Part shown: positions 5,924-60,550 of the stretch, piece by piece
How the letters are laid out: each line of letters opens with the position of its first letter
Numbering within the stretch: the stretch's first letter is position 1
Origin: Sporosarcina sp. FSL K6-2383
GTDB taxonomy: Bacteria; Bacillota; Bacilli; Bacillales_A; Planococcaceae
NCBI RefSeq assembly: GCF_038618305.1
Contig: NZ_CP152017.1
Span: 1,093,501-1,157,500, forward strand
Direction of reading: 5' to 3'
DNA length: 64,000 nucleotides
Notes under the pieces: model-generated
Seen by the model: the letters and a program-made list of their open reading frames with translations, nothing else
The model's database searches: none
Told to the model about the DNA's origin: nothing
Program-made: the position numbers and the translations under genes

Positions 5924-6097
5924 CATTACAGTTAGCCATATTGCCATTACAGTTTGTGCATTTGTCATTAGAGTTATAGCGCGCCATTACAGTTCTCGGA
6001 TTTGCCATTACAGTTTGTGCATTTCCCATTAGAGTTTTAGAGCCCCATTACAGTTTTCGGATTTGTCATTACAGTTCCCACATTAGTCATTACAGTC
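5924..6097 (+). repeat. Intergenic short tandem array A (nine units, core CATTACAGTT)
   Basis: Nine copies of CATTA(C/G)AGT(T/C) start at 5924, 5945, 5966, 5985, 6006, 6027, 6046, 6067 and 6088. Steps are 21, 21, 19, repeated, giving a higher-order unit of exactly 61 bases seen three times; the third copy of the first two triplets reads CATTAGAGTT. The rest of 5831-6280 holds no convincing gene: the only open frame runs through the repeats. The array follows the haem cluster terminator and precedes the ilvD promoter. Confidence 0.9.
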
Positions 6098-6282
6098 TTA
6101 GCCCTTCTAGCCAGTTCACGAATTTCTACAAGCACTCCCGCGAGCTCAAAAATGACTCTGAAAAAAATATTTTAATTTGTTCATAAAATAGTAGTATGCA
6201 ATATATCGCGATGCGTCGGGATTTGTAAGCGCATTCAAACAAACGCACTATTTGTAATTGGCTAATAATTTAAAAAAGACTG

Positions 6283-8117: not shown

Positions 8118-8139
8118 AGTAATTAAATACATTAACTCG

Positions 8140-8421
8140 TTGATGAGGTAAAAGTGGTTGGAATTCGTATTCACAGAGAGCCGGTGGTGCTGAAAGCCGG
8201 TAATACAACCAACCGCGACATCCCCTCGGAGTGGATTGCTGAAACTTGTGTAACAATAGGCAATCTCGGGCTTAGAGAAATCTGTGCTCGTTAGCAACGA
8301 ATAGACTCGTCTATTCATAAGGTAGCGATTTTGCTACGAACAAGGGTGGTACCATGAAAAGCTTTTTCATCCCTATGTAAAGAAGAATATTTCTTTGCGT
8401 GGATGAAGAAAGCTTTTTTTA
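8140..8421 (+). ncRNA. T-box riboswitch leader of the ilvB-leuD operon (probable tRNA-Ile specifier)
   Basis: The conserved T-box AAGGGTGGTACCA lies at 8342-8354. A terminator follows: GAAAAGCTTTTTCATCC pairs with GGATGAAGAAAGC, with a T-run ending near 8420. Upstream is a Stem I with the usual AGAGAG and GGTGGTGCTGAAAGCC elements (about 8174-8200). The likely specifier codon is ATC at 8220-8222, in the context GCGAC-ATC-CCCTCGGAG that resembles other T-box specifier loops, so uncharged tRNA-Ile should favour read-through. The B. subtilis ilv-leu leader uses a Leu specifier, so this would be a different sensing choice. The T-box itself is certain; the specifier is my reading without a folding program. 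Confidence 0.92.
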
Positions 8422-8476: not shown

Positions 8477-10237
8477 ATGAATGCTGGAGTTCAAGCGAAG
8501 CAAGTAACAACTGAAATGGCACCGGAAACTGTGACTGAACAACAAACAAACCAACCGAAAGATGGGTCGGCTGTTCTCATTCAGGCGTTAAAGGACCAAG
8601 GTGTCGAAGTTGTCTTCGGTTATCCTGGGGGGGCCGTTTTACCCATCTATGATGCACTGTATCAAAACCCAATCACTCACGTACTTGCTCGACATGAACA
8701 AGGCGCGATTCATGCGGCTGAAGGCTATGCACGTGTTTCTGGAAAACCAGGCGTTGTCATTGCAACATCAGGTCCAGGAGCAACAAACTTAGTAACAGGA
8801 ATTACCGACGCCATGATGGACTCACTACCACTCGTTGTTTTTACTGGCCAAGTAGCAAGCTCCGTCATTGGGACAGATGCTTTCCAAGAAGCTGATATTA
8901 TCGGTATCACGCAACCAATTACGAAACATAATTACCAAGTAAATAACGTAGCAGATTTACCAAGGATTATTAAAGAAGCGTTCCATATTGCTTCAACGGG
9001 ACGTAAAGGTCCGGTTCTAGTCGATATTCCGAAAGATATTGCTACGAGTCTAGCTGTACCTACTAATGAGGTAGAGGCAGAAGTCAATTTACCAGGCTAT
9101 CAACCGACAACAACTCCAAACTTTTTACAAATACAAAAAGCAGCACAAGCCATTTCCCAAGCGAAAAAACCATTGATTCTTGCAGGTGCCGGTATTCTTC
9201 ATGCACAAGCAATGGACGAATTGAAAGAATTCGTAGAAAAACATCAAATTCCAGTAACGAACACGCTACTAGGACTTGGTGGAATCCACGGAAATCACGA
9301 AATGTTCCTTGGAATGGCTGGTATGCACGGCACGGTTACATCTAATATGGCACTTTATAAATGCGATGTACTCATCAATATTGGTGCACGCTTCGATGAT
9401 CGATTGACGGGAAATCTGGGGAAATTCGCTCCAAACGCAAAAGTCATTCATATCGACATCGACCCAGCCGAAATCGGCAAAAATGTCCCGACAGAAATCC
9501 CGATTGTGGCAGATGCGAAGGAAGCATTAAAAGCTTTGTTACAGCAAGAAATTACTGTGACAGAGACAGGCGATTGGCTAACGTATTTACAGGAATCTCT
9601 TAACGAGTATCCTCTATGGTATAACACGGATGAAAAGGCATTGCTTCCTCAACAAGCCTTGGAAATCATCCACCGTGTGACGAATGGAGATGCCATTGTG
9701 ACGACAGACGTCGGACAACATCAGATGTGGGCGGCGCAATATTATCCACTAAATAATCCGGATCACTGGGTAACTTCCGGTGGGCTTGGAACAATGGGCT
9801 TCGGTTTCCCAGCAGCAGTGGGTGCTCAAATTGCAAAACCAGATAAACGTGTTGTTGCCATTGTGGGTGATGCTGGCTTCCAGATGACGGCACAGGAGCT
9901 ATCCTTACTACAAGAGCTTCGCATTCCTGTGAAAGTTGTTATTTTGAACAACCAAGCACTCGGTATGGTTCGTCAATGGCAGGAAACATTTTATGAGGAA
10001 CGCTTCTCACAATCCTTGATTCCTGTACAACCGGATTTTGTCAAACTAGCAGAAGCGTATGATATCAAGGGTTACCGTATTGAAACGTTGGAAGAAGCTG
10101 AAACAGTGTTCCAAGAAGCATTATTATCGGATGAACCGGTCCTCATTGATTGTCGCGTAAAGCAGTTGGAAAACGTCTATCCGATGGTAGTACCAGGTAC
10201 AGGGCTACATGAAATGATTGGGAGGAACCCGAAATGA
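8477..10237 (+). CDS. ilvB: Acetolactate synthase, large catalytic subunit
   Basis: 586 residues. It condenses pyruvate with pyruvate or 2-ketobutyrate using thiamine diphosphate. Visible are [15 protein letters not shown] and the catalytic Glu in [16 protein letters not shown], the central FAD-binding region, and the C-terminal thiamine-diphosphate motif [13 protein letters not shown]...NN. About 28 N-terminal residues before the conserved domain are Gln/Thr-rich and look non-catalytic. The RBS AAGGAGGAG fits the chosen ATG. It is the first gene after the T-box and its stop overlaps the start of the small-subunit gene by 4 bases. Confidence 0.97.
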
Positions 10238-10806: not shown

Positions 10807-13390
<2,584 letters not shown>

Positions 13391-16676: not shown

Positions 16677-16885
16677 TTATTTACCACTAAAATATTACTT
16701 TCTCTACTTCAATCAAGTGTCATCATGAAGTTATCGATCATTTTGAGGAGGTTATCGATCAATTCAGCAGAGTTATCGTCATTCCGGGACCTTTAGCTCA
16801 TCTAAGTGGTAAACTTGCCTATCTGTATTAAGGTTTTTGGGATAGAATCTTGCTCTTGTTTACCGTCTTTTTGCATGTGTTTTTA
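16677..16885. other. Convergent intergenic region with short array B
   Basis: This lies between leuD (plus) and the collagen-like gene (minus). It holds three units with core TTATCGATCA or TTATCGTCA starting at 16731, 16752 and 16773, exactly 21 bases apart. No gene and no clear minus-strand terminator for the collagen-like gene were found. Confidence 0.6.
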
Positions 16886-18634
16886 TTAATTGATACTCAG
16901 ACCTGCACTTGCCTCTCCTGTCAAAGTGTTTACTAGATTAATGCCGCTAGCAGTTGCAGAAAACACCATTAGCAAACGGTCACCTTCAGTGACATTAAAC
17001 GAGAAGCCACTTGCAGTATCCGCTACTGCAGTACCGATTGAGATTGTACTTGGGAACTCTAGACTTACAGTAACACCAGTAGCGTTGAAGGTGCTGCTAT
17101 CTCCGGTTGCATGATATATTTCAGCATGAACGGTCATTGTGGATAGTGGAAGGTTCAATCCGATGGTACTTCTGAAAAACGCCGATATGCTTGTCAGTGC
17201 CCCTGTACGAGGAACCATAAAGGCTAAGTTACTAAGGGCCGGAAGTATGAATGAACCACCAGCGATGGCAACGCCAGGTATTGAAGTTCCAAAGCCTATT
17301 AGTGCCGGAGTACCAACTAATCCTAAGGCTAATGTGTTCAATGTGACAGCTGAAGTTCCCGAAGCAAATGGAATTAACGCGCTAGCACCTGGTATACCTT
17401 GAGGTCCTGTATCGCCAGTGACACCTTGTGGACCTTGGATACCCTGAATTCCTTGTGGCCCAGTATCTCCCGTGACGCCTTGAATACCTTGTATCCCCTG
17501 AAGCCCTTGTGGTCCGGTTGGTCCGGTAGGCCCTGTATCCCCGGTGACACCTTGTATTCCCTGGATACCCTGAATTCCTTGAGGTCCAGTATCTCCCGTG
17601 ACGCCTTGAATACCTTGTATCCCCTGAAGCCCTTGAGGTCCAGTCGCACCGGTAGGTCCAGTATCTCCAGTGACACCTTGTGGACCTTGGATGCCCTGAA
17701 TTCCTTGTGGTCCAATCGCGCCGATTGTCCCAGTGGGACCTGTAGCCCCAGTTGGTCCCGTTACACCTTGAATCCCTTGAGGTCCAGTCGCGCCTGTATC
17801 CCCGGTAGTACCTGTAGCACCAGTCGGTCCCGTTACACCTTGAAGCCCTTGTAGCCCAGTCGCGCCTGTAGCCCCAGTTGGTCCCGTTACACCTTGAATC
17901 CCTTGAGGTCCAGTCGCACCTGTAGCCCCGGTAGTACCTGTAGCACCAGTCGGTCCCGTTACACCTTGAATCCCTTGAGGTCCCGTCGCGCCTGTAGCCC
18001 CGGTAGTACCTGTAGCCCCAGTTGGTCCCGTTACACCTTGAATCCCTTGAGGTCCCGTCGCACCTGTAGCCCCGGTAGTACCTGTAGCACCAGTCGGTCC
18101 AGTAACACCTTGAATCCCTTGAGGCCCAGTCGCGCCGGTAGCTCCCGTAGTACCTGTAGCACCAGTCGGTCCTGTAACACCTTGAATTCCTTGAGGTCCA
18201 GTCGCCCCCGTAGCTCCCGTATTTCCAGTAACACCTTGAATGCCCTGAACGCCTTGGGGTCCTTGAGGTCCAGTCGCACCTTGAATACCCTGAATCCCTT
18301 GGGGTCCTTGAGCTCCGGTAACGCCTTGAATTCCTTGAGGACCAGTTGCACCTTGAATACCTTGAACTCCCTGAGGTCCCGTAGCGCCAGTAGACCCTGT
18401 AGCTCCTGTAGCCCCTGTCGGTCCAGTAGCTCCAGTTACGCCTTGAACTCCTTGAGGCCCCGTCGCGCCAGTAGGCCCTGTAACTCCAGTAGGTCCCTGA
18501 GGTCCAGTCGCACCTGTTGGTCCTTGACAACAACATAAGCAACTATCGCATTCGCAACAGTCATCAGTTCCACGACACTCACTAGATTCATTACATTTGC
18601 TAGATTGATGTCGCACATAATCATAAAAATTCAT
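16886..18634 (-). CDS. Collagen-like exosporium protein with BclB-type C-terminal domain
   Basis: 582 residues: a short Cys-rich N-terminus (nine Cys between residues 14 and 36), about 127 uninterrupted Gly-X-Y triplets (37-418) and a C-terminal domain of 164 residues starting [10 protein letters not shown] and ending SAGLSIN. That domain matches, from memory, the BclB-type exosporium glycoprotein domain. Triplets are rich in GPT, GAT and GPQ; Thr-rich triplets are typical O-glycosylation sites. There is no signal peptide, as expected for spore coat or exosporium proteins made in the mother cell. The RBS GGAGTG precedes the ATG. A glycosyltransferase gene lies upstream on the same strand. No hydroxylase or export gene is nearby. 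Confidence 0.88.
17743..18250 (-). repeat. 72-bp tandem repeats inside the collagen-like gene
   Basis: The triplet-coding DNA repeats with a 72-base (24-residue) period: equivalent points fall at 17761, 17833, 17887, 17959, 18031, 18103 and 18175, with one 54-base step. The number of units is likely to vary between strains, and assemblies may collapse it. Confidence 0.8.
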
Positions 18635-22557: not shown

Positions 22558-22793
22558 AACGTTGCATAGTTAAGTGTAAACGTTGTTAAGTATTGCGCGA
22601 ACGTTGTTTAGTTAGGTGTAAACGTTGTGAAGTATTGCGCGAACGTTGTTTAGTCAGATGGAAACGTTGTTAAGTTAGCAGGAAACGTTGCTAAGTGGTG
22701 TGAACGTTGCGTAGTTAGGCAAAAAGGTTGTGAAGTATCGTGAAAATGTTGTTTAGTTAGACGAAAGCATCGCATATTTTCGCGAAAGCATTG
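22558..22793 (+). repeat. Intergenic short tandem array C (twelve units, core AACGTTG)
   Basis: Units start at 22558, 22579, 22600, 22621, 22642, 22663, 22684, 22703, 22724, 22745, 22766 and 22787. All steps are 21 except one of 19 (22684 to 22703). The first eight have AACGTTG; the last four are degenerate (AAGGTTG, AATGTTG, AGCATCG, AGCATTG). The second half of each unit is often TTAGTTAG or GAAGTATT. It lies between the terminators of two convergent genes. Confidence 0.9.
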
Positions 22794-22803
22794 TCAAGTC
22801 AAA

Positions 22804-32864: not shown

Positions 32865-34361
32865 ATGATTGAAATGACCGGAATTTCAAAGGCTTTTGAT
32901 GGCAATAAAGTCCTGAATAATGTTGAGTTTTCTATAAAAAAAGGTGAAATTCACGCACTCATGGGTGAAAATGGTGCTGGGAAATCGACGTTGATGAAAA
33001 TCTTGACTGGTATTTATGCGCGAGACGCAGGTGAAGTAAAGGTAAAGGGCAAGCTGGTCGATTTTAAAAATCCAAAGGAAGCAGAACGTGCTGGGATTGC
33101 GGTTATTCACCAAGAGCTTAATATTTTACCGGATTTGACTGTGACGGAAAACCTGTTCCTTGGTAATGAAAAGACGTTCGGGAAAAGTGGGATTTTAAAG
33201 ACGGGGAAAATGAATCGAGAAGCCAAAAAGGTTTTATTGGAGCTTGGATTGGATGTCGATGTGAAATCGGTTGCTCGCGATCTTTCAGTTGGAAAGCAGC
33301 AAATCATTGAAATTGCGAAAGCGATGTCATCCAATGCAGAAGTGATTATTATGGATGAGCCGACAGCGGCACTCACTGATCGAGAAATTGAGTCACTGTT
33401 TGAAACGATTAAAGCATTACAGGAAACGGGCGTTTCTTTCGTTTATATTTCACATCGTATGGAAGAAATTTTTGCGATTTGTGATCGAATTACTATTTTA
33501 CGGGATGGCAATTATGTCGGCGTTAAAGAGATTAAAGAAACATCCTTCGATGAAATCGTACAGATGATGGTTGGGCGAGAGCTCGGGGAACGTTTCCCGG
33601 AACGTCATGCAGAAATTGGCGACGTGAAATTGACTGCTGACGGATTGACGCGAAATGGGCATTTCGAAAATATATCCTTTGAGCTGCGAAAAGGCGAGGT
33701 TCTTGGCATCGCAGGTTTGATGGGGGCAGGAAGAACTGAGGTTGCACAGGCACTGTTTGGCTATCGGAAATTGCATAAAGGTGACCTGTTACTCGACGGG
33801 AAGCCTGTTAAAATTACGAATCCTCTGCAAGCTAAAAAACTGAGCTTCGGTTATGTCACAGAAGACCGGAAATCGGAAGGACTAATCGTAGAGTTCTCGG
33901 TAAAAGACAATTTAAGCTTACCGAATTTTAATAAAATCGCCAGTAACGGCATCATTAAGACGAAGGAAGAACAAAGCTTATACGACAGTATGGTAGAACG
34001 ATTAGGTATCCGAACTTCGGGTCCACATCAATTGGCAAAATCACTGAGTGGTGGAAACCAGCAAAAGGTTGTTATTGCTAAATGGCTCGGTATTGAGCCT
34101 GATGTTTTAATACTGGACGAGCCAACGCGTGGTGTTGATGTTGGAGCGAAAAAAGAAATTTATACGATTATCAATGAGCTTGCTGAAAGAGGTGTCGCGA
34201 TTTTGATGATTTCATCGGAATTACCTGAAATTATTGGGATGACTGACCGCGTGCTTGTCATGCATGAAGGGACTGTCACGGCAGAACTACAGCGAGAGGA
34301 TATGACGCAAGAACGAATTATGCATTACGCTACGGGAGGTGACAAAGTTGCTCAAATCTAA
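32865..34361 (+). CDS. rbsA: Ribose ABC transporter ATP-binding protein (double ATPase)
   Basis: 498 residues with two ABC domains. The first has Walker [10 protein letters not shown], signature [15 protein letters not shown] and Walker [14 protein letters not shown]. The second has a degenerate Walker A (GLMGAGRTE), signature [15 protein letters not shown] and [15 protein letters not shown]. This asymmetry is normal in RbsA/MglA proteins. The RBS is GGAAGGTGG. The 3' end overlaps rbsC by 14 bases. Confidence 0.96.
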
Positions 34362-36281: not shown

Positions 36282-36953
36282 TCAAAATCCAAGTACTTTT
36301 CGCACTTCATTGATATACGTCTGGCTGACAGGTAATTCAGTGCCATCTTTTAGAATGAGTATGAGATTTGAAGAGAAATCTCTGCTGATACGATGAATAG
36401 AGGGAATGTTGACGATATAGGAACGGTGAATGCGCAAAAACGTATTCGGCAAACGTAAGTGCAAATCCTTTAATGTATGACTCGTGTTAAAGCGCTCATT
36501 TTCAGCATAAAACCATGTTTTCTTCTGCAAGCTTTCTATATGCGTAATCTGTTCAACAGGTAGTAGACTCCAGTCATCCTGTTGCTTACCGGTAAGAAAG
36601 CGGAAGGGTTCGTGCTTTAGCACATGATAATTGGGAGGGAGGATAACGACCAACGCCCCGGGTTCACCGTTAAGATGAATCGGATACCCGATGCCATAAT
36701 AGGACACGCCAAACAATGAATTATCCATAATCGTATCAACTTTACGCTGTTCCATAATGACTCGATCTGCAATGCTCCCAGGTCTAATCACTTGCCCTTC
36801 TTTTAATCGGATGTCGTGCAATCCAGCAGCGTAATAGACATAATGCTCGCCAATAGCAATGGCAATAGCCGCATCCTTCGGTATCCAATCCTCCATTATC
36901 ATAGCGTATTGCAGTAAAACCTCTTTCGAAACTGCCGTTCTCCCCATGGTCAT
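36282..36953 (-). CDS. LytTR-domain transcriptional regulator divergent from aceA
   Basis: 223 residues. The C-terminal 100 residues are a LytTR DNA-binding domain (KTWFYAENERFNTSHTLKDLHLRLPNTFLRIHRSYIVNIPSIHRI...LPVSQTY). The N-terminal part (about 1-125) is not a receiver: there is no phospho-Asp pocket. It contains AIAIAIGEHYVYYAAG and a later GEPGALVVILP and may be a small-molecule sensor. The start has an RBS (GAAGGGGGA). It is divergently placed against the isocitrate lyase gene with about 205 bases between, so it is a candidate regulator of the glyoxylate shunt. That link is inference from position. Confidence 0.8.
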   Translation of the reverse strand: MTMGRTAVSKEVLLQYAMIMEDWIPKDAAIAIAIGEHYVYYAAGLHDIRLKEGQVIRPGSIADRVIMEQRKVDTIMDNSLFGVSYYGIGYPIHLNGEPGALVVILPPNYHVLKHEPFRFLTGKQQDDWSLLPVEQITHIESLQKKTWFYAENERFNTSHTLKDLHLRLPNTFLRIHRSYIVNIPSIHRISRDFSSNLILILKDGTELPVSQTYINEVRKVLGF

Positions 36954-40213: not shown

Positions 40214-40338
40214 GTTGATTAACGCTTCAGGCGGACGCTTTCCGCGGGCACGGCTTCAATCTCCTCGTCACTACGTTCCTGCGGGGCTTTCAGCTCGCGC
40301 TGTTCCCGCAGGAGTCGCCGCCCTATGCTCCAATCAAC
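40214..40338. repeat. 125-bp GC-rich intergenic repeat with terminal inverted repeats
   Basis: The element is bounded by GTTGATT (40214-40220) and AATCAAC (40332-40338). It contains CTTTCCGCGGGCACGGCTTC and a long hairpin CCTGCGGG/CCCGCAGG (about 40278-40313). It is far more GC-rich than its surroundings. From memory it resembles a repeat that recurs between genes in many Bacillaceae genomes; copy number cannot be checked here. Confidence 0.65.
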
Positions 40339-40726: not shown

Positions 40727-41893
40727 ATGCGTAATGAAGAAATGTTATTAATACCAGGACCAACGCCAGTAGTCGATTCGATTTATGATGCGATGGCGAG
40801 TGAAACGAGAGGACATACGGATCCGCGCTTTGTCGCCATTTATAAAAACGCCATTGAGCAGACGAGGGCAATGCTGCAAACAGATGGGGAAGTGTTTGTC
40901 GTTGCTGGTTCGGGAACGATTGCGATGGAAATGGCGCTCGTCAACACAGTTGTTGCTGGTGAAAAAATCCTAGTCATTAGTCAAGGCTATTTCGGCGATC
41001 GCTTTATTACACTAGGGCAGGCCTTTGGTATTGAAGTGGATGTGCTGCAAGCGGAATGGGGCAAGCAAGTAGCTCCGGCAGATGTGGAGGCGAAACTGGC
41101 AGCAGGGCAGTATAAAGCAGTGACGGTTACACATGCCGATACTTCGACAGGCGTTGCAGCTAACCTGGATGCGCTCGTACCAATCGTGAAAAAACATGGA
41201 GCACTTGTCATTTTGGATGGTGTCTGTGCAACGGCTGCGATGGAAGAGGATATGGGCAAAACTTACGGTGATCCTAACTATAAGATTGATATTATTTTAA
41301 CAGGCTCCCAAAAAGCAATCGGCGTACCACCGGGACTGGCGATTGTTGCCTTTAACCAAACCGCGCTGGCTGCACGGAAGCAAATTGAGCGTGTGCCAGC
41401 TTATTATTGCGATATTTACAATTGGATTCCGATTATGAATGATCCATCCAAATACTTTGCTACACCTCCTGTGAACTTGATTTATGCTTATGATGAAGGG
41501 ATGCGTCTCGTTTCGGAAGAGGGTATGTCGGCAAGAATTAGACGCCACACTGCATTTGGTAAAGCGGTGCGTGCTTCTCTAGGCGAATACGGCATGACAG
41601 CATTAGCCGATGAAACCGTTGCGGCTTCGACGTTGAGCTGTATTCTTTATCCGGAAGGCGTAGACGATGTGGTATTCCGTTCAGCACTGGCGAAAAAAGG
41701 TGTCATTGTCGCAGGCTCGCTTGCTCATTTAGCAGGAAAAGCCTTCCGTATTGGACATATGGGCAATACGACGGAAGAAATGTTAGAACAAGCCATCCGT
41801 TCAATCGGCGAAACGTTGAATCAAATCGGACACGCTGTTGATGTAGAGAAGGCTGTTGGGCGGTTTAAGGAAGAAGTTTTGTTAGGCGTTTAA
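40727..41893 (+). CDS. Class V aminotransferase (alanine/serine-glyoxylate type)
   Basis: 388 residues, fold-type I PLP enzyme. The N-terminal LLIPGPTPVVDSIYDAM and GHTDPRF, the HADTSTGVAANLD motif and the PLP lysine in TGSQKAIGVPPG mark the AGXT/PucG/serine-pyruvate aminotransferase family, which typically transfers an amino group to glyoxylate to give glycine. Its position next to aceA-aceB fits a role in using glyoxylate. The amino donor (alanine, serine or ureidoglycine) cannot be decided; no purine-degradation genes are nearby. The RBS is AAGGGGGAA. Confidence 0.87.
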   Translation: MRNEEMLLIPGPTPVVDSIYDAMASETRGHTDPRFVAIYKNAIEQTRAMLQTDGEVFVVAGSGTIAMEMALVNTVVAGEKILVISQGYFGDRFITLGQAFGIEVDVLQAEWGKQVAPADVEAKLAAGQYKAVTVTHADTSTGVAANLDALVPIVKKHGALVILDGVCATAAMEEDMGKTYGDPNYKIDIILTGSQKAIGVPPGLAIVAFNQTALAARKQIERVPAYYCDIYNWIPIMNDPSKYFATPPVNLIYAYDEGMRLVSEEGMSARIRRHTAFGKAVRASLGEYGMTALADETVAASTLSCILYPEGVDDVVFRSALAKKGVIVAGSLAHLAGKAFRIGHMGNTTEEMLEQAIRSIGETLNQIGHAVDVEKAVGRFKEEVLLGV

Positions 41894-41903
41894 GAAGATA
41901 TGA

Positions 41904-41946
41904 GCAAGTCATTCTGGTGTAGACACTGGAATGACTTGTTTTTTAT
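41904..41946 (+). terminator. Rho-independent terminator after the aminotransferase gene
   Basis: CAAGTCATTC(T)GGTGT pairs with ACAC(T)GGAATGACTTG, followed by six T. Array D begins about 17 bases later. Confidence 0.9.
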
Positions 41947-41962
41947 GCTTGTTTACTGAAAA

Positions 41963-42445
41963 GATAGCTCAGTTCATCCGGCGTAGTCCAGTTTGCTGAA
42001 AAGGTAGTTCAGTTTCACCTTAAGGTAGTCGAGTTTGCGAAATCGGTAGTCCAATTCGCCCGGCGTAGCTCAGTTTGCCGAAAGGGTAGTCCAGTTTCAG
42101 CATAAGGTAGTCGAGTTTACGAAATCGGTAGCTCAGTTCATCCGGCGTAGCTCAGTTTGCTGAAAAGGTAGTTCAGTTCATCCGGCGTAGCTCAGTTTGC
42201 TGAAAAGGTAGTTCAGTTCGCCCGGCGTAGCTCAGTTTGCCGAAAAGGTAGTCCAGTTTCAGCATAAGGTAGTCGAGTTCACGAAATCGGTAGCTCAGTT
42301 CATCCGGCGTAACTCAGTTTGCTGAAAAGGTAGTCCAGTTTCACCTTAAGGTAGTCGAGTTTGCGAAATCGGTAGCTCAGTTCATCCGGCGTAGCTCAGT
42401 TTGCCGAAAGGGTAGTCCAGTTTTCCAAATAGGTAGCCCAGTTTC
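41963..42445 (+). repeat. Intergenic short tandem array D (24 units, core TAGTCCAGTT / TAGCTCAGTT)
   Basis: TAG of successive units starts at 41965, 41984, 42005, 42026, 42047, 42066, 42087, 42108, 42129, 42148, 42169, 42188, 42209, 42228, 42249, 42270, 42291, 42310 (here TAA), 42331, 42352, 42373, 42392, 42413 and 42434. Every step is 19 or 21. Short units usually end CATCCGGCG or GCCCGGCG; long ones end TTTGCTGAAAAGG, TTTGCGAAATCGG or TTTCAGCATAAGG, so units of several types are shuffled. It is the longest array in the window and fills most of the gap before fruR. No reading frame survives it. Confidence 0.92.
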
Positions 42446-46739: not shown

Positions 46740-48257
46740 ATGAACAGTTCACAATTGGTGGCGCGTAATGCAAGGAAGTATCCGCAAACAGAAGCGGTTA
46801 TTGGAATGGGGAAGCGATATTCGTATCAGCAGCTAGACGGATTAGTGAATCAGTTCGCACACGGGCTGAGGAACCATGAAATAGGTGAAGGGGACAGGGT
46901 TGTTCTATATATGCCGAATGTCCCGGAATTCGCGATTGCTTATTTTGCAATTCAGCGTTTAGGAGCCATTGTTGTGCCCATTAATGCACGGATGACTCTT
47001 TCTGAAGTGGAGTATGTATTGGGGGATTCTGGTGCCAAGGCTTTTGTTGCTCATGACTTATTGTTTGCGGCTATTAAAGAGATGAACAGCAATCTGCTAC
47101 TAATCAAAACAGGGGAAGGACAAACTGGCTGGATTAGTTTTGAATCTGTATTCGAAGAAAACAGTACGCCAATTGACTGTAATTTACCGGAATCTGCGGA
47201 ATCGACTATTTTGTATACGTCTGGAACAACGGGGAAACCGAAAGGTGTGTTATTTAGTTATAAAAATATCCTGACGGTTGCGCAAATGATTTGTGTCGAA
47301 ATGGAAATAAAGCCGGAAAGCCGTTTACTTATCATGATGCCACTTAGTCATTCTGCTCCACTCCATCTGTTATTTATGGCAGGTCTTATTGTAGGCGCGA
47401 CGAGCGTGTTGACGCCGACATTTACGCCAGATTTGTTGATTGATACGGTGGAGCAGGAAAAAACGACGCATTTCTTTGGTGCACCTGTCGCTTACTTATT
47501 GACAGCGAAGCATCCAAAAATGGCAACGGCCGATTTGTCTTCGATGCAATGGTGGATTTACGGGGGAGCTCCATTATCGAAGCCAGAGGTGGAATATGTG
47601 CAACAAGCCTTTAAAACAGATAATCTTGTTTGCGTTTATGGACTGACAGAGGCGGGGCCAAACGGAACTTTATTAACCGGAAGTGAACATGCGACGAAGG
47701 CGGGAAGTATTGGGAAACGGGCAGCTTTGCATGCGGAAATCATGGTGGCGAATGCGGTTGGTGAAACTGTCCAGCTTGGTGAAGTCGGGGAAATTCTATT
47801 GTGCGGGGAGGGCAATATGATTGGGTACTATAAAAATGAAGAGGCGACGGCAGAGACGTTCACCGGAAACTGGTTGAAAACGGGCGATTTAGCGAGGGTC
47901 GATGAGGACGGCTACATCTGGATTGTTGATCGCAAGAAGGATTTAATTATTTCTGGTGGGGTTAATATTTATCCAAAGGAAGTGGAGGACGCTCTGGTCA
48001 CACATCCATTAATCAATGAAGTAGCGGTTATTGGTGTGCCACATCCAGAGTGGGGCGAGACAGTGAAGGCCTATTTTGCGGCAAGTGAGGAGCTTGACCT
48101 GGAGGATGTGAAACAATTTGCTGAGGAGAAACTAGCACATTATAAAGTCCCGCGCCTGTATGAGCAAGTCGATGCTTTGCCACGGAATGCTTCTGGAAAA
48201 ATACTCAAGCAACCGCTGAGAAAGAGGGATAATTATGGTGCTACAACAACAGATTGA
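46740..48257 (+). CDS. Acyl-CoA synthetase (AMP-forming; fatty-acid or short-chain)
   Basis: 505 residues, ANL superfamily. The AMP-binding P-loop STILYTSGTTGKPKGVLF, the YGLTEAGPNG motif, the hinge KTGDLARVDEDGYIWIVDRKKDLIISGG and the C-terminal catalytic Lys in PRNASGKILKQPLR are all present. It activates a carboxylic acid to its CoA ester. Chain length cannot be told from sequence by eye. It lies 4 bases after the MerR gene and overlaps the acyl-CoA dehydrogenase gene by 23 bases, so the three form one unit. Confidence 0.9.
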   Translation: MNSSQLVARNARKYPQTEAVIGMGKRYSYQQLDGLVNQFAHGLRNHEIGEGDRVVLYMPNVPEFAIAYFAIQRLGAIVVPINARMTLSEVEYVLGDSGAKAFVAHDLLFAAIKEMNSNLLLIKTGEGQTGWISFESVFEENSTPIDCNLPESAESTILYTSGTTGKPKGVLFSYKNILTVAQMICVEMEIKPESRLLIMMPLSHSAPLHLLFMAGLIVGATSVLTPTFTPDLLIDTVEQEKTTHFFGAPVAYLLTAKHPKMATADLSSMQWWIYGGAPLSKPEVEYVQQAFKTDNLVCVYGLTEAGPNGTLLTGSEHATKAGSIGKRAALHAEIMVANAVGETVQLGEVGEILLCGEGNMIGYYKNEEATAETFTGNWLKTGDLARVDEDGYIWIVDRKKDLIISGGVNIYPKEVEDALVTHPLINEVAVIGVPHPEWGETVKAYFAASEELDLEDVKQFAEEKLAHYKVPRLYEQVDALPRNASGKILKQPLRKRDNYGATTTD

Positions 48258-52018: not shown

Positions 52019-52093
52019 GTTGTTGGTTCGACTTTCGTTGTCCGGTTCGCTGAATTGGTTGCCCAGTTTTCCATTTCCGTTGTCCAGTTCCCG
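52019..52093 (+). repeat. Intergenic short array E (four units, core GTTGTCC(A/G)GTT)
   Basis: GTTG starts at 52019, 52037, 52058 and 52079 (steps 18, 21, 21; the first unit lacks one base of the core). The core GTTGTCCAGTT resembles those of arrays D and F. It directly follows the chemoreceptor terminator. Confidence 0.7.
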
Positions 52094-55744: not shown

Positions 55745-55747
55745 CGG

Positions 55748-57623: not shown

Positions 57624-58730
57624 ATGAAAAAAATAGTTGTGTTTAGCAATATGTATCCGTCATCACAGCATCCGACATTTGGATTATTTGTCAAAAATCA
57701 AGTGGAGCTTCTTCAATGGGCAGGTCTTGATGTGGATGTAGTTGCGATTCAGGATCCGGGTAAAGGGAAAGTAAGAGCCTTACAAAAATATATGATATGG
57801 TTTAGTCGTTCTGTTGTTTATTTAATGAAAAACCAAAAAAAATTATCACTTACGCATGCACATTATGCATTTCCGACAGGGATTCTGTCATTGATGGGGA
57901 AAAGGATGTTTGGCATTCCTTATGTTGTAACGGTTCATGGTGGCGATATTGATCAAATGGCTGCAAGGAGTCAACGAATTGCTCGTATGACGAAGAGGAT
58001 TTTGCAACAGGCGGAGGCTGTCATTGTTGTGGGGGACAAGCTTCGGAAAGACGTAACAAGCCGTTTCGGTGTTGCAAATGCAAACGTGCATGTCATGAGC
58101 ATGGGTGTTGATACGTCTGTCTTTAACTATGTGCAGAAAGAGGAGGCCCGCAACCAGATTGGCCTGTCGCAAGATGAAAAAATACTGCTATTCGTAGGGA
58201 ATATTACCCGAGCAAAAGGGTTGCTTGAACTTGTTGAAGCGTTCGATTCGTTGAAATTGTCGTTACCTGATAGCTCGTTGTATATCGTTGGTTCGCAGAA
58301 AGATAGTCATTTTTTCGAAGAGTTGCGGTCGTTTATCCGCGATAAGGATGTGGAAGATATCCACTTTAAAGAGCCATTAGGACAAGCTGCGTTATCTCTT
58401 TGGATGTCGGCTGCCGATGCACTGATTTTGCCTTCACACCATGAGGGCTTTGGATTGGTCGCACTTGAGGCCATGTCTGCTGGCACGAAGGTTGTTGGTA
58501 CAGATGTTGGTGGGCTGTCTTATTTATTGAAGGATGGTGCTGGGGTTTTAGTCGAAGCGAAAAATCCGGACTCGTTGGCGCAAGGTATGTGGAGTGTGCT
58601 AGATGAAGAGGTGATTGATGAAGCCGTTGTGCGCGCAAGAATTGCGGAACACTCCTTTGAAGCTATTTTAGAGAAGTTATTATCGATTTATCGTTCAGCT
58701 GAGAAAGGTCAGGTTGATCGTAATGAGTAA
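57624..58730 (+). CDS. Family 4 glycosyltransferase
   Basis: 368 residues from the ATG at 57624; in-frame starts at 57585 and 57612 are possible but add residues before the conserved KKIVVFSNMYP. GT-B fold: the N-terminal domain has THAHYAFPTGIL and VVTVHGGDID, and the C-terminal domain has ILLFVGNITRAKGLLELVEAF and the EX7E motif in PSHHEGFGLVALEAMSAGTKVVGTDVGG. It transfers a sugar from a nucleotide donor, probably at the membrane face. The stop overlaps the flippase start, so the pair may build and translocate one lipid-linked glycan. The acceptor is unknown. Confidence 0.87.
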   Translation: MKKIVVFSNMYPSSQHPTFGLFVKNQVELLQWAGLDVDVVAIQDPGKGKVRALQKYMIWFSRSVVYLMKNQKKLSLTHAHYAFPTGILSLMGKRMFGIPYVVTVHGGDIDQMAARSQRIARMTKRILQQAEAVIVVGDKLRKDVTSRFGVANANVHVMSMGVDTSVFNYVQKEEARNQIGLSQDEKILLFVGNITRAKGLLELVEAFDSLKLSLPDSSLYIVGSQKDSHFFEELRSFIRDKDVEDIHFKEPLGQAALSLWMSAADALILPSHHEGFGLVALEAMSAGTKVVGTDVGGLSYLLKDGAGVLVEAKNPDSLAQGMWSVLDEEVIDEAVVRARIAEHSFEAILEKLLSIYRSAEKGQVDRNE

Positions 58731-60006
58731 AATGATGAAAATTATCGGGGCTGTCGCTGTGATTAATATCGTGGCGCGGATGTTTGGTTTTTTACGAGAA
58801 GTTGTCATTGGGAACCAGTATGGCACAACGACGACGGCGGATGCCATTGCGACAGCGTATGCAATACCGAATTTCATTTACCTCGTGGTAGGTGGGGGAT
58901 TGACGACGGCGTTTATATCGGTCTATCATTCGACGAGAACGGATAAGTCCTTGTATGTACGCAAATCGTTTACGACTGTTCTTGTGGCGGCTGTGTCGAT
59001 AACGGCTTTCTTAATGATCTTTACAGATCCAGTGTTAAAGCTGTTTTTCAACAATCGAAGTGCCGAGGATTTCGCATTGATACGTAATCTTTATCTTTGG
59101 ATGATGCCTTCTTCTATCATTCTTGTGTTATCGACATGGATGAGTGGGGCGCTAAATATCAATGGTAAATACAATTTGTCGAGTATGGCAGTACTGCTCT
59201 ACAATGCGGCATTTGTCGGAATTGCTGTGCTGCTGACGAAGCCGTTTGGAGCGGAATCCTACGGAATTGGTGCTATGATAGCTGCCATTTTAATGGGAGG
59301 ATTCTTGTATGTTGGTTTTCGGAGATCAAAACTATATTCGTTAAAACCATCTTTTGGCATGTCTGATGATGTTAAACGGTTATGGGTCATCGCGTTGCCG
59401 ATTTTGTTTGGTGGAGCCTCATTACAATTCTATATCCTTATCCATCGAATTGTAGCGGCTCAATTTGATGCAGGTGTGATTTCAGCGGTTAACTACGCAT
59501 CGAAATCGACAGGCCTTCCACAGGCAATTCTGATGACTGCGGTGACAACGGTTATTTACCCTCTTTTGAGTAAAAAAGAAGGAGAGGGCGATATGGAGAC
59601 CATCCGCAAGCTTTATAAAAAAGGGATGCTCTATTTAGTTACACTACTTGCACCAGCAACGGCTGTCGCGTACTTTTTTGCGGAACCGCTTATCAGTTTC
59701 GTTTTCGAACGAGGGGAATTTACGAGAGAATCGACCTTGTTGATGACACCGATATTCCAAGTATTTGCGCTGTCGATGTTCTTCTTGGCTGCGAATACGT
59801 TTATTACTCGATTTTATTATGCAAAAGCTAATTCAATTGTGCCGGTCATATTCAGTGTGATTAGTGTCTTGGGGATTAATATAGCAGTTATCTATTTAAT
59901 GAAGGATGCGTTTGGTGCTTCATCGATTGCATATGGTACGTTTATTAGTGCGGCGATAAACTTTGTGATGCTTGTAATTTATGCACGAGTGAAGTGGAAG
60001 CTGTAA
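58723..60006 (+). CDS. MurJ/MVF-family lipid-linked glycan flippase
   Basis: 427 residues from the ATG at 58723, overlapping the glycosyltransferase stop; a TTG at 58714 is an alternative. About twelve hydrophobic helices. The N-terminal IVARMFGFLREVVIGNQYGTTTTADAIATAYAIPNF is characteristic of the MurJ (MviN) branch of the MOP superfamily. It is shorter than typical MurJ (about 500 residues, 14 helices), lacking roughly two C-terminal helices. It may flip lipid II or another undecaprenyl-linked glycan made with the upstream glycosyltransferase. Confidence 0.8.
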   Translation: MSKMMKIIGAVAVINIVARMFGFLREVVIGNQYGTTTTADAIATAYAIPNFIYLVVGGGLTTAFISVYHSTRTDKSLYVRKSFTTVLVAAVSITAFLMIFTDPVLKLFFNNRSAEDFALIRNLYLWMMPSSIILVLSTWMSGALNINGKYNLSSMAVLLYNAAFVGIAVLLTKPFGAESYGIGAMIAAILMGGFLYVGFRRSKLYSLKPSFGMSDDVKRLWVIALPILFGGASLQFYILIHRIVAAQFDAGVISAVNYASKSTGLPQAILMTAVTTVIYPLLSKKEGEGDMETIRKLYKKGMLYLVTLLAPATAVAYFFAEPLISFVFERGEFTRESTLLMTPIFQVFALSMFFLAANTFITRFYYAKANSIVPVIFSVISVLGINIAVIYLMKDAFGASSIAYGTFISAAINFVMLVIYARVKWKL

Positions 60007-60056
60007 GTCGTTTATTAAGTCGAGCGGTTTCGGTGATAGTGAAAGAACAAGTTACT

Positions 60057-60251
60057 ATGTGGTTTGAACATTTCCATGCATATTCTGGGATCAGTTGGAA
60101 AGGCATTATTACGACTACGGAAAATCGGGAAATTTTGGTAGGTATAGGAATCGGGTGCTGGGCATTTGACGATTTGACAGATGATTTGGAAAGGCGACTG
60201 AGTCATTACTATATAATCGAGAAGCCCTCGATATTGACGCGCGTATTTTGA
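60057..60251 (+). CDS. Possible small protein of unknown function
   Basis: A 64-codon open frame from ATG 60057, downstream of the flippase gene. The RBS is poor (GAAAGAA) and the product (MWFEHFHAYSG...) resembles nothing I recognise. It may be a chance frame; it is listed because the 60007-60289 gap has no other content. Confidence 0.22.
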   Translation: MWFEHFHAYSGISWKGIITTTENREILVGIGIGCWAFDDLTDDLERRLSHYYIIEKPSILTRVF

Positions 60252-60349: not shown

Positions 60350-60550
60350 ACGTTGTCTACTTTGCTGAAAATGTTGTTTAGTTTCCGAAAAACGTTGTCT
60401 AGTTTGTTGATTATGTTGCTTACTTGATCAAACGTTGTTAACTTTCCCGAAAGCGTTGTCTAGTTTCCGAAAAACGTTGTCTAGTTTGTTGATTATATTG
60501 TTTACTGGATCGAACGTTGTCAACTTTGCCGAAAACCTTGTTAAGTTACC
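60350..60550 (+). repeat. Intergenic short tandem array F (ten units, core AACGTTGTCTAGTTT)
   Basis: The GTTG position of successive units falls at 60352, 60373, 60394, 60415, 60434, 60455, 60476, 60497 (here ATTG), 60516 and 60537 (here CTTG). Steps are 21, 21, 21, 19, 21, 21, 21, 19, 21. The spacer word TTTGCTGAAAA (60361-60371) also occurs in array D. It lies between the flippase hairpin and the convergent SulP gene; no minus-strand terminator for SulP is obvious here. Confidence 0.9.

Follow-up and report, generated by a model that had tools for sequence, protein, structure and literature searches.

Short direct repeats at a nearly constant step lie past gene ends in the source Sporosarcina genome, and it is the step, not the repeated word, that unites them. 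Six such intergenic arrays (A to F; Table 1) are found in the window, by which we mean the whole 64-kb stretch of DNA that was analysed. All six had been predicted from the sequence, with different words and a near-constant step, and all six are present. Considered together with a core that is better kept than its spacer and with the replacement of words at kept sites, the arrays are tentatively read here as direct-repeat rows for a candidate DNA-binding protein that would tolerate 19-22 bp and act as a roadblock behind terminators.

Arrays of the window and their words

With the core word as a ruler, every step measured in the six window arrays is either 21 or 19 bases; the single step of 18 included in the original prediction was not found. 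The final units of array C are recognised with a looser word, and array F, located by its core word, starts at 60352. Array D begins about 15 bases past the hairpin listed in Table 1 and is partly built of 82-base repeats. The higher-order periods decompose into the two steps (82 = 21+21+21+19; 61 = 21+21+19), and Tandem Repeats Finder recovers most array stretches of the window with periods of 21, 40, 42, 61 and 82, array E giving a 13-base match only. A coding tandem repeat is rejected, as had been argued from the sequence, since steps of 19 and 20 bases break the reading frame and periods of 40, 61 and 82 are not multiples of 3. The spacer word TTTGCTGAAAA, noticed beforehand in arrays D and F, is indeed common to both. 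In the 19-base units of array D and of other type I arrays, also in the relative G061, the spacer is distinct and GC-rich, often CCCCGGGG or CCCCGAGG; because of this spacer, the short unit appears to be a separate unit type rather than a random deletion.

Table 1. Repeat arrays of the window and the hairpin preceding array D (window positions)
Feature	Position	Strand	Units and core	Steps (bases)
Array A	5924..6100	+	9 units, core CATTACAGTT (type III)	21,21,19,21,21,19,21,21
Array B	16730..16783	+	3 units, core GTTATCGATCA	21,21
Array C	22558..22800	+	about 12 units, core AACGTTGYYWAGTT (type II)	21x6,19,21,21,19,21
Hairpin and T-run, intrinsic-terminator-like, of the aminotransferase gene 40727-41893	41902..41949	+		
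Array D	41964..42444	+	24 units, core GTAGYYSAGTT (type I)	16 steps of 21, 7 of 19
Array E	52037..52090	+	3 units, core GTTGYCCRGTT, spacers mutually dissimilar	21,21
Array F	60350..60545	+	10 units, core AACGTTGTCTAGTT (type II)	21,21,21,19,21,21,21,19,21

Self-similarity of the gaps holding arrays A, C, D and F shows strong peaks at lags 21, 40, 42, 61 or 82, the best two peaks having z of 5.9 to 16.9 for A, C and D and of 7.6 and 4.3 for F. The gaps of B and E, too short for a strong peak, give z of 2.1 and 2.4, and some other gaps reach z of 3 to 4 at unrelated lags. Elsewhere in the window, a minus-strand ORF at 17374-18634, collagen-like in appearance, contains repeats of 9, 18, 27, 54 and 72 bases. 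Before array F, within 58714-60250, a MurJ-like ORF stops at 60006 and another frame is open to about 60249, possibly reflecting a frameshift or a second small gene.

Five word families are recognised in the sampled source genome: type I, GTAGYYSAGTT; type II, AACGTTGYYWASTT; type III, CATTACAGTT and CATGACAGTT; type IV, TTATGACCGCC; and type V, GTTATCGATCA. The cores had been taken as locus-specific. The arrays are indeed united by their step and not by their word, but a few word families are reused across loci, type I being found at 19 loci of a sample picked partly by matches to array D. Genome-wide, the type I word has 273 copies against 17 for the reversed control, and adjacent type I pairs number 199 against 0. 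The adjacent-pair pattern occurs 69 times in G061, 3 times in G014 and in none of the other 65 genomes of the genus that were searched. Lone type I words (7 of 242 in 864 kb, about 4 being expected from the reversed control) are near chance, and an ordinary transcription-factor operator is rejected on that ground.

Used as a similarity query, the DNA of array D matches 2 of 61 genomes, its own included; step-based scans find arrays in more species. A step-defined repeat family escapes similarity searches, perhaps the reason why this one went unseen. Against its own genome, array D gives 32 further match rows at 68-88% identity, many spanning several units, and this resemblance to many other arrays over whole units suggests copying between loci. 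As a side remark, contig NZ_JADHDX010000001.1 (L153), filed under Arthrobacter beigongshangensis REN13, shows 93% protein identity to the source Sporosarcina at the query gene, and its label looks wrong.

Step, core and word across genomes

The source genome (G000) is a single contig of 3.67 Mb, of which the window covers positions 1093501-1157500. A lag-identity scan covered 464 kb of it (20 evenly spread stretches and the window) and retained 60-bp intergenic stretches with at least 60% identity at lags 12-45; intergenic counts were used, the coding-sequence values being distorted by N runs in L059 and L060. Lag 21 yielded 16 stretches, lag 42 yielded 11, lag 40 yielded 5 and lag 25 a single one, with none at the remaining lags from 12 to 45 and none in shuffles. 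Word chains were also searched (any 8-base word, one mismatch allowed, at least 4 units, all steps from 12 to 60). In the source genome, 8 of 231 gaps contain chains at a step of 20-22, with doubles at 39-43; chains at other steps were found in single gaps at 34, 35 and 60, and shuffles gave 0. Period scans of this kind had been proposed with the original prediction, and the arrays exceed chance in them.

In relatives, chains at 20-22 are present in 6 of 103 gaps of G061, in 3 of 105 of G014 (with one possibly spurious array in L125, where the gap is 2390 bases long and the steps are 22, 22, 21) and in 20 of 375 of other Sporosarcina, a genus in which four-unit chains are almost confined to 20-22 and its double. 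The Bacillaceae have 10 in 411 gaps, 4 of the 10 being orthologues in near species (L175, L187, L189, L191) and therefore not independent. In Lysinibacillus/Ureibacillus, chains at 20-22 were found in 0 of 143 gaps, and the lag scan detected one array at a 42-base lag in L. sphaericus. Shuffles of all genome sets together gave one match. Words of relatives with a like step include CGATCATATAA, CGCTCATAAA, CGCCAATAA, AAACGACCAAAG and CGGTGATAA, and the Bacillaceae array word is CTATCCGCACATAAA. The same rule being seen in separate assemblies of other species, an assembly artefact, named beforehand as a possible refutation, is unlikely. Other constant steps may be used in other families: a small mixed sample (146 gaps) contains one 20-22 array (G043), together with chains at 17-19 in G037 and at 17-19, 26-28, 37-39 and 50-52 in G038, this last genome (L152, L255) suggesting the idea.

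The step is 19/21 in the source clade and 20, 21 or 20/21 in relatives. In 47 strict arrays, 349 of 385 steps are of 20-22 and 36 of 19, the chaining here having allowed 19-22 only and the word-chain search 12-60; the mean step of an array ranges from 19.8 to 21.67, with a median of 20.68. It had been proposed that a step of 21 places all cores on one face of the helix. The two-turn spacing stands; strict one-face phasing is not kept, given the steps of 19 and 20 and the clade-dependent spacing.

Identity between adjacent units of the 47 strict arrays averages 0.87 over the nine best-kept columns and 0.40 over the remaining twelve, a contrast inflated by word-based detection. Because such detection favours cores, the contrast was remeasured on regions picked by total identity alone. 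At lag 21, the means are then 0.79 and 0.45, that is, a gap of 0.34 against 0.20 under permutation. Taken singly, 18 of the 56 lag-21 regions and 5 of the 20 lag-20 regions have a concentrated core at p<=0.01, and the other 38 lag-21 regions fall short of it; the total-identity threshold was lax enough for 2 to 13 regions to pass at each of the control lags 17 to 30. A core of about 9 bases is thus conserved between units and the remainder is much less kept. Conserved core, freer spacer and fixed step together have the look of binding sites set in a row. Intergenic tandem repeats of 52 bases form a class apart, observed in 7 of 411 Bacillaceae gaps (L161, L193, L199, L201, L216 and others), in Robertmurraya, Mesobacillus, Evansella, Caldibacillus and Bacillus. 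In six regions of this class, found by the same word method, identity is high throughout the unit and is still 0.74-0.84 outside the best columns. A length of 52 bases is close to five helical turns, as a step of 21 is to two.

Past the terminator of the aminotransferase gene (site D), an array is present in 7 of 7 species compared, with five word families. The word is type I in the source, AAGTGTCCAAC in G061 and CGCCAATAA in G014; G071, G072 and G078 have CGATCATA/GACCGATC forms (L154 and G078 are, judged by length, the same contig, so that their rows are not independent), and G073 has an AACGTTT form with three strict units. The flanks of the site, terminator and downstream promoter DNA, can be aligned among G000 (the source genome), G061 and G014, and the G014 array consists of five CGCCAATAA cores 21 apart with dissimilar spacers. 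A GC-rich stretch at 40215-40330 resembles an imperfect inverted repeat and also dispersed Bacillaceae repeats; the relatives compared lack a visible counterpart at the orthologous position.

More generally, an array is present at 16 of 25 orthologues of the six window array sites, against 6 of 62 orthologues of other sites (Fisher p=6e-7; counted by hand), bearing in mind that a long gap may be inherited as such and also leave room for an array; shuffled gaps at orthologous sites carry one in 0 of 119. Left out of this count are rows in which a gene was not called (at 34361, at 48257, at the end of the window and for 3 of 4 species at 11853), incomplete matches, the second of the two sides in four convergent gaps, and a G073 match at 55747, on the far side of its site-D gap; with this match kept, the second figure is 7 of 63 (p=1.4e-6). 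Array presence is nevertheless patchy between species. Site B is the only window site where the three closest species have the same word, in 3 to 6 units as judged by eye, and its units differ one by one between species. Two of the three site-A words, those of G000 and G014, share the ending ACAGTT and may be related. Finally, a 222-aa LytTR-domain protein (36282-36953) adjoins a convergent gap that is empty in the window and holds long arrays in G014, G071 and G072.

Position and orientation relative to genes

Where genes are called on both sides of the gap, strict arrays occupy 30 of 824 co-directional gaps, 13 of 179 convergent gaps and 1 of 284 gaps between divergent genes (Fisher p=3e-4; p=2e-5 with the single divergent case moved). 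The divergent case is a gene-calling error. Expressed per gene 3' end, the frequency is 3.6% in co-directional and convergent gaps alike, and the association with 3' ends that had been put forward for checking is thereby supported. A genuine exception exists, however, in the hit-biased sample, where one divergent gap holds a type I array of 16 units. A cruder earlier test, based on one 9-mer pair at lag 19-21 and a rough ORF caller, had given 19 of 280 divergent gaps against 30 of 826 others; the later count relies on a second caller and on the four-unit test. This gene caller is home-made; it overlooked some genes and, in L042, called a spurious one within an array.

All six window arrays follow a plus-strand gene and then a hairpin, the latter judged by eye. 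A terminator-like hairpin stands between gene and array in 32 of 42 cases, the figure for control gaps being 255 of 638; the search ranges differ in that the control used a shorter part of each gap, and one array was lost to a key collision. These figures come from a second version of the test; the first, which gave 22 of 43, failed where the stem runs into the T-run. For 25 of the 32 arrays with a hairpin, the first unit lies 12-38 bases past the start of the T-run.

As for direction, it agrees with that of the upstream gene in 21 of 22 co-directional arrays of the sampled source genome (p=1.1e-5; two adjacent rows merged). Types I-III do so in 20 of 20 cases, and the lone exception belongs to type IV, the forward direction of which is set by convention. 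Three co-directional arrays (L035, L042, L060) lie behind genes that oppose the replication direction inferred from GC skew, and 3 of 3 follow the gene; a replication-oriented motif is rejected on these cases, too few to be final. Type IV occurs in both directions, as does the G061 word GTTGGACACTT, and G014 has a reversed type I array. The link to gene ends that had been predicted from the six arrays is therefore retained, and orientation along the upstream gene is a strong tendency instead of a rule.

Candidate mechanisms and known systems

In the tentatively preferred reading as rows of protein-binding sites, each core of about 9-11 bp would seat one protomer of a sequence-specific protein, and neighbouring protomers would touch at two-turn spacing, 19-22 bp being tolerated. 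Core and step would then be under selection and the spacer sequence would not. Neighbour contact fits the step tolerance better than strict one-face phasing does. Separate word families within one genome might be read by different proteins or by paralogues; from one species to another, a word would be exchanged along with its reader and the site retained. Bound in this way, the protein could stop or insulate transcription that escapes the terminator, a job made likely by the fact that rows start about 25 bases past T-runs and mostly point along the upstream gene. A step of 20-22 held over unrelated words in Planococcaceae and Bacillaceae argues for the reading. Against it stand the near-chance level of lone type I words, unlike an ordinary operator, the orientation exceptions, the 19- and 20-base steps and the whole-unit likeness of array D to other arrays. 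Of the roles considered in the original prediction, a protein scaffold fits best. By analogy with centromeres, it may further be imagined, as a rather improbable extension, that Bacillales share a docking system behind gene ends which conserves spacing and not sequence, the word at a kept site being replaced wholesale as its quickly evolving reader, specific to each genome, changes.

Strongest among the rival readings, possible though on the whole doubtful, is that of a self-spreading minisatellite, in which slippage or unequal exchange and copying behind terminators would generate the arrays, with a step set by the duplication machinery and no function. The higher-order repeats of 82, 61 and 40 bases, the unit-by-unit differences at site B, the further match rows of array D and the patchy presence all suit such an element, for which DNA past terminators would presumably be a safe insertion place. 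Neutral duplication should, however, yield many unit lengths, and others are nearly absent in Sporosarcina at the four-unit threshold; neutral decay, likewise, should not spare a 9-base core, and yet the five cores of G014 are kept at site D. Searches for two classes of mobility protein also speak against it. No reverse transcriptase was matched (PF00078 gives 0 matches in G000, with control hits in 3 of 14), and a retroelement product (DGR, retron, DRT) is rejected; PF01797 matches at one place, as two overlapping matches each with a stop, leaving no intact Y1 transposase, and REP/RAYT is rejected as well. If the arrays are neutral after all, they point to a duplication process locked to two helical turns, and if they bind protein, to a general means by which these Gram-positive chromosomes protect their gene ends.

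Arrays could also act as RNA, a read-through transcript whose row of words would bind a protein or pair with RNA (sponge, Rho-loading). Location past terminators and gene-wise orientation agree with this, but it is improbable: a flexible RNA would not obviously require a step constant to within 1-2 bases, and the folds of arrays D and C do not go beyond shuffles (z -0.63 and -0.47), so that a structured RNA is rejected and the structured read-through RNA originally envisaged finds no support in folding. At the Rfam gathering score, the only match in the window is a T-box; this leader (RF00230) lies at 8131-8377, upstream of an ORF at 8477.

Equally improbable is a reading by analogy as putative binding rows, or sinks, for LytTR-domain regulators. 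LytTR operators are described as 9-bp direct repeats mostly 12 bp apart, in a minority 11 or 13, with low sequence conservation (PMC6193735). This is the geometry of the arrays, with the same looseness of word, and the resulting repeat spacing of 20-22 bp is found for 349 of 385 array steps. LytTR domains are moreover encoded in 68 of 68 genus genomes, and full matches to a LytTR consensus exceed shuffles in the source (8 of 71 units; 1.35 shuffled) and in G061 (4 of 84; 1.45). There is, however, no excess in other Sporosarcina (2 of 196; 4.0 shuffled) or Bacillaceae (1 of 58; 1.6), G014 has 1 of 23, and most units fail the consensus even in the source genome. Array-rich genomes have 5, 5 and 8 LytTR genes within a genus range of 1-8, and an expansion of these genes in the array-rich genomes is rejected. 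Known sites are pairs upstream of promoters, the arrays being rows of 3-49 units past gene ends, and 19-base steps fall outside the reported spacers. Divergent gaps, where promoters are the sole gene-end signals, hold 1 array in 284 (the annotation error), but co-directional arrays are also upstream of the next gene. Because most units are off consensus and LytTR genes are not expanded, we regard LytTR as a likeness and not as membership.

The claim that no described element follows this rule thus needs qualification, since LytTR operators and the STAR repeats of Staphylococcus share parts of it; a step-defined repeat family with changing words was itself not found described in the open-access literature searched. 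Plasmid iterons likewise recur in direct orientation roughly every two helical turns, and a single protein binds them; the arrays, in contrast, are chromosomal, occupy many loci past gene ends and use several words per genome. CRISPR arrays have constant-length repeats and variable spacers, whereas core and spacer are far shorter here and the same spacers return within higher-order repeats. REP/RAYT repeats and DNA-uptake sequences are interspersed, intergenic short words, some of them at terminators; the array cores differ in being non-palindromic, outside the hairpin and in constant-step rows.

With STAR, the arrays share intergenic direct repeats with a short kept motif and less kept, locus-distinct spacers, a variable unit number, different loci in each species and a function that is unknown (PMC3532100). 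STAR is built on one 14-bp GC-rich motif, T(G/A/T)TGTTG(G/T)GGCCC(C/A), with spacers of 40-44 bp (PMC3532100). The arrays use several unrelated words of 9-11 bases, past gene ends, which are swapped at kept sites; GGCCC occurs in 0 of 47 array consensus strings, and steps of 19-22 contrast with the roughly 40 bp or more between STAR motifs. With a single motif and steps above 50, STAR is the nearest described repeat found.
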